Assembly: GCA_027319095.1 (NCBI GenBank)
Contig: DAHVNW010000010.1
Coordinates: 1-51,382 of the forward strand
DNA from: a bacterium
GTDB lineage: Bacteria; SZUA-79; Acidulodesulfobacterales; Acidulodesulfobacteraceae
Reading direction: 5' to 3'
Length of the DNA: 51,382 bases
This document shows positions 26,592 through 33,599 of this stretch, one piece after another. Every line of letters begins with the position of its first letter. Positions within the stretch are counted from its first letter, which is position 1. The position numbers were made by a program, and so were the translations under genes. The notes beneath the pieces are model-generated. The model ran no database searches. It saw only the letters and a list, made by a program, of their open reading frames with translations, and was not told the DNA's origin.

Positions 26592-26705
26592 ATGCCCACA
26601 AAAGGCATGCTTTTGTATCGTAAAGGGAGGGGAATTGCGCAGGATAAATCTCTTATAAAAAAAGGAGAGAGAATAAGGCTGCAGGTTTATAAATTCGAAA
26701 AATGA
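26592..26705 (+). CDS. Possible 37-residue small protein coupled to ntrY
   Basis: An open frame of 37 codons begins at ATG 26592 (MPTKGMLLYRKGRG...) and ends in a TGA that overlaps the ntrY ATG as ATGA. The peptide is basic with no membrane segment. No Shine-Dalgarno precedes the first ATG; a second in-frame ATG at 26607 follows AAAGGC. The overlap would explain how ntrY, which lacks a near Shine-Dalgarno, is translated. It could equally be a chance frame or the remnant of a longer gene. No family is recognised. Confidence 0.3.
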   Translation: MPTKGMLLYRKGRGIAQDKSLIKKGERIRLQVYKFEK

Positions 26706-28744
26706 AGAAGAAAAATAGCGAAAAAAACATCCGAAAAGATCAAGTAAAAGTAAAGATTAAAAGGGAAATTATCTTTGCTGCGGTAGTTTTTCTGCTCGTC
26801 GTTTTTTCGACTTTCGAAGAACTCAGGATGATTACGTTTTCCAACGTTTCCGTGACGTCGAAAATTATCGTCTATGCTTATATCAATATAACTATAGTAT
26901 TGTTTCTTTTTATGTCGTTCTTAGTTTTAAGGAACGTTATAAAATTAGTCGTAGAAAGAAAGAAAGGGGTAATAGGCGCAAAACTTAGAGCAAAGTTAGT
27001 GGGGCTTTTTGTAATAGTAAGCGTGGTGCCGTCGGTTTTTATGTTCGTAGTCATTATCGCTACCGGTTTTGCAGCGAATATTATAAACAAATGGTATTCG
27101 CTCAGGTTTGAAAAAGCCATGAATTATATGAAGGCAATCCTAAGGAAGCACAGCGGGGTCATTAAGAACGCAAGGGATGCCGGCGTCAATCGTAAAATTG
27201 AATGGCTCGAACATTTTTACAGGGAATATTCGCAGATAAGGTTTATAAAAAATCCTATGGAGACTACATATCTGATATTATTTTCTATTTTTACTCTCAT
27301 AGTCCTGTTTATATCTTCATGGGTGGGTTTCTATATCTCTAAAAAATTAACCAAACCGATTATAGACTTAGTTGAAGGCACAAAAAAAGTCGCTTCGGGA
27401 AATCTAGATATTAAAGTCGAAAAAGAATCCGACGATGAAATCGGAATGTTGATAAATTCCTTTAATTCCATGACATCCGACCTTAAAGACAACAAGGGAG
27501 AAATTGAAAAGGCAAACGCCGGTTTAAAAAAAGTCAACGAGGAAATAGAAAGAAGAAGAAAGTTTATGGAGATAATCTTAAAAAACATCCATGCCGGCGT
27601 AATAGGCATAGATGCGACGGGCAGGGTCAGGAGCCTTAATAAAGCGGCGGAAGATATGTTTGGAATATTGAATAAAGACGCGCTTGGAAAAAATTATAAA
27701 GAAGTTTTCGATAAGGACATATTTACCGATATTAGAGGCATTATAAGAGATTTAGCCAAAAACGAAAAAGATACCTTAACGAAAGAGCTAAAATTAAGCA
27801 TAGGGGGAAATTTAAAAGTATATATCGTAAACCTTACCGTATTAAAAGACGAATCCTTGAATTATATAGGCTTCATTATAGTATTAAACGATACTACCGA
27901 TATGATGAAAGCGCAAAGGGTTGCCGCCTGGGAAGAAGTTGCAAAAAGGATGTCGCACGAAATAAAAAATCCGCTGACCCCGATACGTCTTTCCGCCGAA
28001 AGGCTAAAAAGGAAATATGGAGGAAAAGTTTTTTCCGAAGACGGAGTTTTCAGCGATTCAATCGATACGATAATTAAAGAGGTCGACGATTTAAAAAATA
28101 TCGTCGATGAATTTTCGCTTTATGCAAGGCTGCCTAAAGCCAATTTTGAATTGACCGATATAAACGTCTTGATAGACGAAGTTACGGCCCTTTATAAAAA
28201 TGCGCATAGAAATATAGGATTCAAAGCTAAACTTATGGAAAATCCGCCCAAAGTTTTCATTGACCGGAGACAGATGAAAAGGGCTTTTATGAATCTCATG
28301 GAAAATGCGGTTTACAGCGTAACCTTAAAATCTATCGGGGAAATGGGAACGGGAGGAAAAGATGCGGCCGATAATAAATATAAAGGCGAAATAACAATAA
28401 CCGTAAAAACGGAAACGGCGTCCGGCAAAATTTCCAAAAATATCGATATCGAAAATATTGGGAACGCCGAAAATAATAAAAATAAGATAAATGAGAAAAA
28501 TACTGTAAAGACGAACGGCAATCCGGCGGAAAGCCTGATAATAGTTTTTTCGGATAACGGAACCGGAATAGACGACGCAACGATGCAAAATATGTACGAA
28601 CCTTATTTTTCGACGAAACAGGGCGGTACCGGACTGGGTCTTGCAATTACTAAAAATATAATGATGGAGAATAATGCTTCTATTGCCGCTAAAAATAACG
28701 AAAACGGCGGGGCAGATTTCATAATAGAATTAAAAGCTGCATAA
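26702..28744 (+). CDS. ntrY: Sensor histidine kinase NtrY
   Basis: A 680-residue membrane kinase. Three N-terminal membrane helices (about 23-40, 55-77, 97-122) include the NtrY hallmark FLVLRNVIKLVVERKKGVIG, then a short extracytoplasmic segment (about 75 residues, smaller than usual), a fourth helix (about 187-210), HAMP, PAS, HisKA with H419 in SHEIKNPLTPIRLSAERL, and HATPase. In the ATPase domain the N box (N535) and G1 Asp (D618) are about 80 residues apart, because of a low-complexity Asn/Lys/Glu insertion around 580-605. GLGLAITKNI is intact. ntrX follows by 15 nt. Role: nitrogen and/or envelope/redox sensing. Confidence 0.92.
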   Translation: MKKKNSEKNIRKDQVKVKIKREIIFAAVVFLLVVFSTFEELRMITFSNVSVTSKIIVYAYINITIVLFLFMSFLVLRNVIKLVVERKKGVIGAKLRAKLVGLFVIVSVVPSVFMFVVIIATGFAANIINKWYSLRFEKAMNYMKAILRKHSGVIKNARDAGVNRKIEWLEHFYREYSQIRFIKNPMETTYLILFSIFTLIVLFISSWVGFYISKKLTKPIIDLVEGTKKVASGNLDIKVEKESDDEIGMLINSFNSMTSDLKDNKGEIEKANAGLKKVNEEIERRRKFMEIILKNIHAGVIGIDATGRVRSLNKAAEDMFGILNKDALGKNYKEVFDKDIFTDIRGIIRDLAKNEKDTLTKELKLSIGGNLKVYIVNLTVLKDESLNYIGFIIVLNDTTDMMKAQRVAAWEEVAKRMSHEIKNPLTPIRLSAERLKRKYGGKVFSEDGVFSDSIDTIIKEVDDLKNIVDEFSLYARLPKANFELTDINVLIDEVTALYKNAHRNIGFKAKLMENPPKVFIDRRQMKRAFMNLMENAVYSVTLKSIGEMGTGGKDAADNKYKGEITITVKTETASGKISKNIDIENIGNAENNKNKINEKNTVKTNGNPAESLIIVFSDNGTGIDDATMQNMYEPYFSTKQGGTGLGLAITKNIMMENNASIAAKNNENGGADFIIELKAA

Positions 28745-28759
28745 CGGAGTCCGAATTAA

Positions 28760-30133
28760 ATGAAAACAGTGCTTATTATAGACGACGAAGAAAACATTAG
28801 AAATTCCCTGTCCGGCATACTTAAGGACGAAGGTTATGCCGCTATTTCGGAAAGCAACGCCGAAGCCGGGTTTAAAGCGTTCGCCGAAAAATCTCCAAAT
28901 GCGGTTTTGCTCGACGTCTGGCTGCCTGACGGGGACGGGGCCGATATTTTAGCAAAAATGATTAACATTAATAAAAATATTCCGGTTATTATGATTTCCG
29001 GCCATTCCAATATAGATACCGCCATAAAGACCATTAAGATAGGGGCATATGATTTTATCGAAAAACCGCTATCCTTGGACAGGCTGCTCATAACCGTAGA
29101 AAACGCCATAAAATTTAACAGCCTGAGCGAAAAGAAAACTATTTTAGCCGAAAGTCAGCCGGGGGGTTTTGAATTTATCGGCGAAGCCGAAAAAATTAAG
29201 ATATTAAAAGAAAAAATAGCAAAAGCCGCGCCCTCTTCGGCTCCGGTCCTTATCACCGGAGAAAACGGCACCGGCAAGGAGATTGCGGCAAGGGCGGTTC
29301 ATTTAAACAGTATAAGGAAAGACGAGCCGTTTATAGCAATAAACTGCGCCGCTATTCCCGAAGAGCTTATAGAAAGCGAAATTTTCGGCTACGAAAAGGG
29401 TGCGTTTACTGGAGCAAATGCAAGAAAAAAAGGAAAATTCGAACTTGCGGACGGAGGAACTATTTTGCTCGACGAAATAGGCGATATGAGCTTAAGGATG
29501 CAGTCTAAAATACTTAGGGTTTTGCAGGAAAATAAATTTCATAGGGTGGGAGGCGAAAGCGAAGTAGAGGCCGACGTGCGGGTCATAGCCGCTACCAATA
29601 AAAATCTCGAAGCCGAAATAGCGGCAGGCAGATTTAGAAACGATTTATTTTTCAGGCTTAACGTTATTCCGCTTTGCGTTCCGCCTTTAAGGGAGCGAAG
29701 GGAAGATATTTCTTTATTGGCCGATTATTTTACTAAGATTTTCGGCGGCAATTCCCGCAGGTTAGAAATAGATAAACCCGCCATGAATATATTAAAAAAT
29801 TACGATTGGCCTGGAAACGTCAGGGAGTTAAAGAACATTATCGAAAGATTTTCTATATTGAACGCTAACGGCAAAATAACCGCAAAGGATGTTTTAAGCG
29901 AATTAAAAATAGGCATAGAAACTCCTAATGCCGCAAATGCCGGGCATGCCGAAAATTACGGACAATATATGTTGCCAGATTCTTTTAAAGAGGCAAAAGA
30001 AAATTTCGAAAAAGCTTATTTAATACGCAAACTAAGCGAAAACGACAACAATATAACGAAAACGGCAAGAATTCTTGGGATGAGCCGCCGCAACCTGCAA
30101 AAAAGAATTAACTGCTTAAATATTAATCAATAA
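28760..30133 (+). CDS. ntrX: Sigma-54-dependent response regulator NtrX
   Basis: A 457-residue activator. The receiver domain (1-120) has the acidic pair D8/D9 and phospho-acceptor D52 in VLLDVWLPDGDG. The AAA+ domain has Walker A GENGTGKE, the sigma-54-contacting GAFTGA loop, and FRNDLFFRLNVIPL. A Fis-type helix-turn-helix ends the protein (NITKTARILGMSRRNLQKRI). It would bind upstream of -24/-12 promoters such as the one 157 nt downstream of its own stop. Confidence 0.95.
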   Translation: MKTVLIIDDEENIRNSLSGILKDEGYAAISESNAEAGFKAFAEKSPNAVLLDVWLPDGDGADILAKMININKNIPVIMISGHSNIDTAIKTIKIGAYDFIEKPLSLDRLLITVENAIKFNSLSEKKTILAESQPGGFEFIGEAEKIKILKEKIAKAAPSSAPVLITGENGTGKEIAARAVHLNSIRKDEPFIAINCAAIPEELIESEIFGYEKGAFTGANARKKGKFELADGGTILLDEIGDMSLRMQSKILRVLQENKFHRVGGESEVEADVRVIAATNKNLEAEIAAGRFRNDLFFRLNVIPLCVPPLRERREDISLLADYFTKIFGGNSRRLEIDKPAMNILKNYDWPGNVRELKNIIERFSILNANGKITAKDVLSELKIGIETPNAANAGHAENYGQYMLPDSFKEAKENFEKAYLIRKLSENDNNITKTARILGMSRRNLQKRINCLNINQ

Positions 30134-30289: not shown

Positions 30290-30305
30290 TGGCATAACTT
30301 TTGCT
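30290..30305 (+). promoter_or_regulatory. Sigma-54 (-24/-12) promoter for porin-glnB-amtB
   Basis: TGGCATAACTTTTGCT matches the consensus TGGCACGRNNNTTGCW with the invariant GG and GC at the correct 10-bp spacing and only the CG of the first block altered. Transcription would start near 30317, about 90 nt before the porin start. It is directly downstream of ntrYX, and rpoN is also in the window, so control of the ammonium module by nitrogen status fits. Confidence 0.8.
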
Positions 30306-30407: not shown

Positions 30408-31829
30408 ATGAAAATTAAAAAAACATTTTCGGCAATTATGTTTATGTTATTTGCGGTTTTTTTAAGCTTGGCTTTTTTTGCCGTTCAAAAAACGGCATAT
30501 GCGGCAACTTCCAAAACAGGCATTAAGGCAATCGAGACAAAATTAGACAAAGCCCTTTCGGAAATTAAGGCAATAAAAAAAGAAAATAAAACGAATAGCG
30601 CGGCAAACTATTTTTCTAATATTCAGCTGTTAGGAACCCTTGCAGCTTCTTATACTTATAACTTTGTAAAACCGGAAACGGTAAACACGCCGTCCTCTTT
30701 CGAAGGCAACGGAAATTACGGCGATAACTGGCAGCCGGACGGATTTGCGGTAAATAACGCCGACATAACCATAAGGCGTTCGCCCGGCACTTCTTAAGAC
30801 CCTTACGGCGTAGGTTTTCATATATCTTTGGATTTTGGACAGAATATACAGTTTTATAAAGCGTATTACGGAAATACGTCGTATTTTACCGCCCCATTCG
30901 AGGACAGGACTCCTTACGACATAAGAAAAGCATATGTCAATATAAACCTGCCCGTAGGAAGCGGGTTAGATATCCACGTAGGAAAGGAGCAGTCGCTCCT
31001 CGGTTTTGAAGCATTCAACCCGATAAGGAACTGGAACGATACCTATTCGCTATTGGATGCCGTCGAGCCGTCGACGCTTGCCGGGGTTTTCTTTACATAT
31101 AACTTTATTCCGCAGCTGACTTCGACATTAGGAATAGCAAATACTATTAACTCTGCAGTTCCTATAGACAATCTTCCGGTCGCGGAGCTTAACGAAAGCT
31201 ATGCCGCGACAAGCATGCTTACGTTTAACGGGGGATTCGTTTACGGGGAAAACAGCTATCTGGCGGGAAACGGAACGGGCGGCAGCACAGGCGGACAGCT
31301 TTACGAAGACAACCTTAATAAAAGCTTTTACGGGTATATAAATGCAGAGTTAAGTCCGGCGCCCGATTGGTCTTTCGTTTTGGATTACGAGCTGGGCTTA
31401 GGCGGCGGATTTAATAACTCGGTATTAAGCGACAACGGGATAACCGCAGGTTCGTATTCGGGATATCCTGCCTTAGTCAGGACTTCGAACTCTACCTACG
31501 GCAAGTCCCGTTTTTACGGCATAGCCGGTTATATTCACCACCAGCATAATTACGGTTTCGGACAGGTAGCCGAAACGTTAAGGGAAGTAGCCGCATACGA
31601 CCAGAACGGCATGTGGGAGGCTACGAGCACGCCTGGAGTAAGCGATAATTATATAGATTCTACTTTGACGCTTGCATATACTCCGGCTGCCAAAAACTTT
31701 AAAAACGTGCAGTTCAGGTTCGAGTTCGAACATCAGGGGGCTAACCACGAAGTTTATTTAGATTCTAACGGTTCGGCGACCCGTTCGCAGCAAAATACAG
31801 TCAATTTTATGGTCCTGTATAGTTTTTAA
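30408..31829 (+). pseudogene. BBP2/OmpL-like outer-membrane porin interrupted by an in-frame TAA
   Basis: Reading one frame from 30408 to 31829 gives a complete porin of about 473 codons except for TAA at 30795-30797 (codon 130). Before it are a signal peptide ending near AYAA (about residues 1-34), a short coiled-coil helix (about 40-65), and the first barrel strands. After it the barrel continues without frame change (DPYGVGFHIS, then YVNINLPVGSGLDIHVGKEQ) and ends in the C-terminal VLYSF aromatic signature. The middle matches the BBP2 (OmpL-like) porin pattern. A single GAA-to-TAA change would explain the stop. Restart downstream would lack a signal peptide. It may be a true mutation, a sequencing error or a readthrough site. 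It may carry ammonium or small solutes, given glnB-amtB downstream. Confidence 0.8.
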
Positions 31830-32189
<360 letters not shown>

Positions 32190-32243: not shown

Positions 32244-33599
32244 ATGAAAATAAGGAAGCTAAATTTTAAAATTCCCATAGGCCTTTTATGGTCTTCTATT
32301 ATAGGAAGCATGGGATTACTTTTGTTTTCCTGGGTTAGTCCGGTTTTTGCCGCAGCGGCTAAAATTCCGGCGTTTAACAGCGGAAATATCGCATGGGTTT
32401 TGGCGTCGTCCGCACTGGTTTTGATAATGACCCCGGGACTCGGATTTTATTACGGCGGTATGGTAAGAAGAAAGAACGTCCTGAATACCATATCTCTTAG
32501 TTTTATTACAATATGCACCGTAAGCGTTATATGGATTTTATGGGGATATTCCATCGCCTTCGGACCGGACGCTTTTCACGGAGTCATAGGCAGCCTTAAA
32601 TATATAGGATTAGTTGCGATGCAAGAGACCCAGCATTCTAGGTATGACGGCACCATACCGTCTTATATTTACGTGATGTTTCAGCTTATGTTCGCGATTA
32701 TTACCGTCGCCCTGGTAAGCGGTTCGCTTGTGGAAAGGATAAAGTTTTCCTCATGGGTGATATTTACGATAGTTTGGCTTACCGTCGTTTATGCTCCGGT
32801 TGCTCAGGCGGTATGGGGGATCGGAGGATTGTTTCAAAAAATGGGCGCATTGGATTTTGCTGGAGGAACGGTCGTTCATATAAATTCCGGCGTCGCGGGC
32901 CTAGCGGGAGCAATCGTGCTTGGAAAAAGAAAAGGCTATATGAAAGAAAACATAGTTCAGCCTAACCAGTTAGGTTATACTATTCTTGGAGGCGCTCTCT
33001 TATGGTTCGGGTGGTTCGGGTTTAATGCCGGAAGCGCACTGGAAGCAAACCCTCTTGCCACCTCCGCTTTTTTAGTAACCAATACCGCCACGGCTGCCGC
33101 CGCTATCGGCTGGATGATTGCGGAGTGGATCAGAAGCGGAAAACCGACGACGCTCGGTATGGTTTCAGGCGCGGTTGCCGGACTTGTCGCCATTACTCCG
33201 GCGTCCGGTTTCGTTAATCCGATAGCTTCAATTATCATAGGTTTCGTAGCCGGAGTAATATGCTATTCCATGGTTGTTTTCGTTAAGCCGAAATTCGGCT
33301 ACGACGATGCGTTAGATGCTTTTAACGTTCATGCCACCGGAGGAGCATGGGGTGCGCTTGCTACCGGTTTATTTGCCGACCCTTTAATTAATTCGGCGGG
33401 AAGAGGTTTGTTTTACGGCAATCCGGGACAGATGTGGGTTCAGCTGTTGACGGTAGTTTCAGTTGCGGTTTATTCTTTTACTATGAGTTTTATAATATTC
33501 AAGGTAATAGATAAAGTAATGGGCCTGCGCGTCGATAAAGAAACCGAATCGATAGGTCTCGACATAACCCAGCACGATGAAGCGGGGTATAATTTCTAA
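32244..33599 (+). CDS. amtB: Ammonium transporter
   Basis: A 451-residue Amt/Rh-family channel with a cleavable-type hydrophobic N-terminus followed by eleven expected membrane helices. ALVLIMTPGLGFYYGGMVRRKN opens the first conserved helix. The twin pore histidines lie in VVHINSGVAGL and FNVHATGGAWGA, and the family signature DFAGGTVVHINSG is intact. AAGGAGG precedes the ATG. It is controlled with glnB, 54 nt upstream, probably from the sigma-54 promoter at 30290. Confidence 0.97.
   Translation: MKIRKLNFKIPIGLLWSSIIGSMGLLLFSWVSPVFAAAAKIPAFNSGNIAWVLASSALVLIMTPGLGFYYGGMVRRKNVLNTISLSFITICTVSVIWILWGYSIAFGPDAFHGVIGSLKYIGLVAMQETQHSRYDGTIPSYIYVMFQLMFAIITVALVSGSLVERIKFSSWVIFTIVWLTVVYAPVAQAVWGIGGLFQKMGALDFAGGTVVHINSGVAGLAGAIVLGKRKGYMKENIVQPNQLGYTILGGALLWFGWFGFNAGSALEANPLATSAFLVTNTATAAAAIGWMIAEWIRSGKPTTLGMVSGAVAGLVAITPASGFVNPIASIIIGFVAGVICYSMVVFVKPKFGYDDALDAFNVHATGGAWGALATGLFADPLINSAGRGLFYGNPGQMWVQLLTVVSVAVYSFTMSFIIFKVIDKVMGLRVDKETESIGLDITQHDEAGYNF

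Follow-up and report, generated by a model that had tools for sequence, protein, structure and literature searches.

Point nonsense alleles of bacterial porin genes, in which likewise one premature stop interrupts a gene that is otherwise intact and shows no decay yet, are the closest described counterparts of the locus reported here; nothing essential differs between them, the present case coming from a single draft assembly and lying in a nitrogen-regulated operon. The porin concerned belongs to the BBP2/OmpL-like family (PF07642), whose domain it matches over the whole length including the barrel end, with an interruption at codon 130. Its surroundings resemble the sigma-54/NtrC-controlled glnK-amtB operon, having likewise an NtrB/NtrC-like pair upstream, a sigma-54 site and glnK and amt in tandem, but differ from it in that a porin gene comes first, an arrangement kept throughout the genus and in genera close to it. 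The Acidulodesulfobacterales (SZUA-79), in which we would place this uncultured organism, have been described from acid mine drainage, with amt expression in step with that of the nitrogenase genes (PMC6776010); a porin is unmentioned in the main text of that paper.

The draft genome measures 1.78 Mb in 168 contigs, with 1.5% contamination, and the window (the whole stretch of DNA that was analysed, 51,382 nucleotides) lies on its contig C11. The porin frame (30408-31829, + strand) comprises 473 codons and translates as 129 residues, a TAA, 343 further residues and a terminal TAA at 31827-31829; it is given with its neighbours in Table 1. Read through the one TAA, the BBP2 profile spans the stop as a single domain (profile positions 2-339 of 339, with '1 TAA' inside) at 80.2 bits against a curated cut-off of 26.2, and by this whole-domain score the frame was assigned to the family. 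The part after the stop also matches BBP2 when taken alone (E 1.6e-17). The original prediction had described a porin-like frame open on both sides of a TAA at 30795-30797 (S129, stop 130, D131), with an intact signal peptide before it and an intact barrel end after it; translation confirmed the numbering and coordinates, both ends were seen in their parts of the frame, and the whole-length BBP2 match bears out the porin on either side.

Table 1. Features of the porin-glnK-amt region and the regulatory genes upstream of it.
Feature	Coordinates	Strand	Basis or remarks
NtrB/NtrY-like sensor histidine kinase (HAMP-PAS-HisKA-HATPase)	26702..28744	+	Pfam; family orthologues
NtrC-like sigma-54 response regulator	28760..30133	+	Pfam Response_reg, Sigma54_activat, HTH_8
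Sigma-54 (-24/-12) promoter-like element TGGCATAACTTTTGCT	30290..30305	+	Perfect match; conserved in relatives
5' part of porin gene	30408..30797	+	Signal peptide, predicted helix/coiled coil, first two beta strands; 129 aa to premature TAA
Premature TAA, codon 130	30795..30797	+	Serine (TCN) in all genus orthologues
3' part of porin gene	30798..31829	+	Intact BBP2 barrel, terminal YSF
PII protein GlnK	31851..32189	+	Pfam P-II; synteny; own strong ribosome-binding site AAAGGAGGTGAAAA
Ammonium transporter Amt, intact	32244..33599	+	Pfam Ammonium_transp; orthologues

Judged from the sequence, the long frame after the stop is no chance event, because its 343 codons are open, its barrel end is intact and homology runs along its whole length. 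No second stop or frameshift was found elsewhere in the whole frame (30408-31829), although its sense codons offer 190 single-base routes to a stop. A mechanical list of open reading frames splits the region into two, of 129 and 333 aa; no usable restart was seen in the sequence after the stop, a TTG at 30828 being without a ribosome-binding site and the first in-frame ATG (31215) lying far inside the barrel. Comparison of the porin with solved structures by sequence found no relative, and an AlphaFold model of low confidence (pLDDT 53), which served for the strand pattern only, placed residue 130 in the turn after the second strand.

Orthologous porins, 12 copies in all, were found in 11 further genomes of this genus, each as a single open frame of 472-508 aa, and a search of relatives showed the part after the stop to be 80-85% identical to these genus orthologues. 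Codon 130 encodes serine in all 12 intact copies (six with TCA, the others with TCC or TCT; the codon of the second copy in genome G003 was read through locus L037), and the stop most likely arose by one C>A change in a TCA codon at 30796. This comparison of relatives upheld one half of what had been proposed, namely that a single base change accounts for the stop, while the ancestral codons named with it (GAA, CAA or AAA, for Glu, Gln or Lys) were ruled out by the serine TCN codons of the alignment. Serine also prevails at residue 130 outside the genus; since L014 has Asn there and L016 has Phe, the site is not a critical one. No relative had a stop at codon 130, either among the genus orthologues or in a profile search of the family, and in that search the window copy was the sole one with a stop among the BBP2 porin copies listed for 30 family genomes.

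Other porin copies were also inspected. A paralogue elsewhere in the same genome (G000:C135), 45% identical, is intact. In G013, a second member of the genus whose genome is 65% complete, a diverged BBP2 paralogue (G013:C52) carries an in-frame TAG (L029:1731-1733) at a tryptophan conserved in other copies, with the frame open on either side; two interrupted porins in nearly sixty are too few to call the porins of this group loss-prone. Genome G003 holds two diverged porin-glnK-amt regions, L005 (C71) and L037 (C49), the second of which closely resembles that of G009 (L006) and may be contamination or a second strain. A suspected porin loss in G012 was not supported, as amt there sits at a contig end and nothing follows it.

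Even when one mismatch was allowed, the window showed no sigma-54 match other than the promoter-like element upstream of the porin. As chance alone would give about 0.5 matches of that quality per window, what counts for the element is where it stands and that it is conserved: relatives have it, with 0-1 mismatch, upstream of the orthologous porin. The porin is followed by glnK throughout the genus and in several near genera, and porin-glnK-amt is predicted to be a sigma-54-controlled operon; the element and the conserved gene order agree with the earlier placing of the porin in a nitrogen-regulated operon. That the ammonium operon starts with a BBP2 porin seems to be a lasting trait of the group. 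No internal stop occurred among the Amt matches listed for the family, and where three relatives seemed to have a TAA inside the histidine kinase gene, the stop proved to lie upstream of the start codon.

Selection on the porin was estimated on a tree of 14 orthologues with a codon model that gave the branch of the window copy a separate omega. Over the 340 codons after the stop, omega was 0.082 on this branch compared to 0.095 elsewhere (2dlnL 0.36), and over the whole gene it was 0.102 compared to 0.110; selection was not relaxed after the stop. A whole-gene likelihood profile with the branch omega fixed (lnL -9096.73 at 0.10, -9097.88 at 0.14 and -9099.04 at 0.16) gave a 95% upper limit of about 0.155 for the window branch, which, supposing that the stop brought constraint to an end, leaves room for an unconstrained part of about 6% of the branch at the most. 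Counted simply, the private substitutions of the window copy (10 nonsynonymous, 11 synonymous) would suggest a slight loosening of selection; the counts are small, however, and the suggestion is not supported by the likelihood model. Since omega is unrelaxed and the gene has acquired no further lesion, the stop is either very recent or not real.

From these sequence comparisons we consider that the TAA is probably a point nonsense allele of very recent date, in which codon 130 of the porin gene of a predicted sigma-54-controlled operon went from TCA to TAA. There is a smaller though still considerable chance that it is a one-base consensus error or a strain-mixture artefact and that the organism itself has an undamaged gene. 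Purifying selection that has lasted until now fits such an error equally well: the rest of the porin looks fully functional, with an omega no higher than that of intact orthologues, and no other member of the genus has a stop in the orthologous gene. The stop was moreover seen in one consensus contig of a fragmented assembly, whose contig number and contamination favour an error, and each species is represented by one genome. Against an error, no internal stop was found in 33 matches in the same genome (16 ABC-transporter and 17 response-regulator matches), and inspection of the sequence showed no homopolymer or repeat at the changed base, 30796. The weights given here to the real allele, which we favour, and to the error, which we take seriously as second, are a judgement and not a computation. 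The original prediction of a fresh null mutation or an assembly error gains support from the finding that selection elsewhere in the gene is unrelaxed; the phase of strain variation offered beside it does not fit, as there is no repeat tract at the site and a single substitution is no phase switch.

Programmed readthrough, or a natural ochre suppressor, that yields some full-length porin is very improbable. The downstream frame is open and constrained, and with Asn and Phe found at residue 130 outside the genus the porin would probably accept whichever amino acid was inserted; however, no relative has a stop at this codon, release factors RF1 and RF2 are both present, none of the 38 tRNAs of an incomplete set has a UUA anticodon, and TAA terminates 34 of the 48 genes in the window. 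Readthrough, which had been raised as an explanation, is thereby disfavoured, and on the same grounds of release factors, tRNAs and stop usage a recoded TAA was rejected, in keeping with the earlier view that recoding was unlikely. To our knowledge, UAA followed by G is not a leaky context. Slighter still is the prospect that readthrough of the ochre codon when nitrogen is limiting gives two products, a short exported coiled-coil stub and the full porin. The sole recoding event seen in the genome is the +1 frameshift of prfB, which keeps its classical programmed site GGAGGATGCTTTGA (CTT TGA; L132 about 350-470, G000:C102); an apparent TAG in prfB was an artefact of reading past this ordinary site. 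An old established pseudogene or a true split into two genes, as the two listed reading frames might suggest, is scarcely credible, given that selection is unrelaxed (the codon-branch model speaks against an old pseudogene), that the downstream frame has neither a ribosome-binding site nor a signal peptide and that no family copy is split at the same place.

If the very recent nonsense allele is real, translation would stop in the turn that follows the second strand of a barrel of roughly 16. Because the modelled strand pattern puts residue 130 in that turn, the 129-residue product should be unable to form a barrel, and only an exported stub of about 100 residues would be left, presumably to be degraded. 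GlnK and Amt would keep their own ribosome-binding sites. Rho is present in the genome, so polarity on glnK-amt is possible: Rho-dependent termination over about 1 kb (about 1,040 bases) of untranslated message may lower their expression, and no terminator-like site was found on the + strand between the stop and glnK. The intact paralogue may partly cover the loss of the porin.

Neither an allele nor an error would change the general view, the stop being an ordinary one. An error would call for the porin gene to be annotated as intact. A real allele would mean that a porin with a conserved place as first gene of the nitrogen operon can disappear in nature, at least briefly, and polarity on glnK-amt could then be tested with it.
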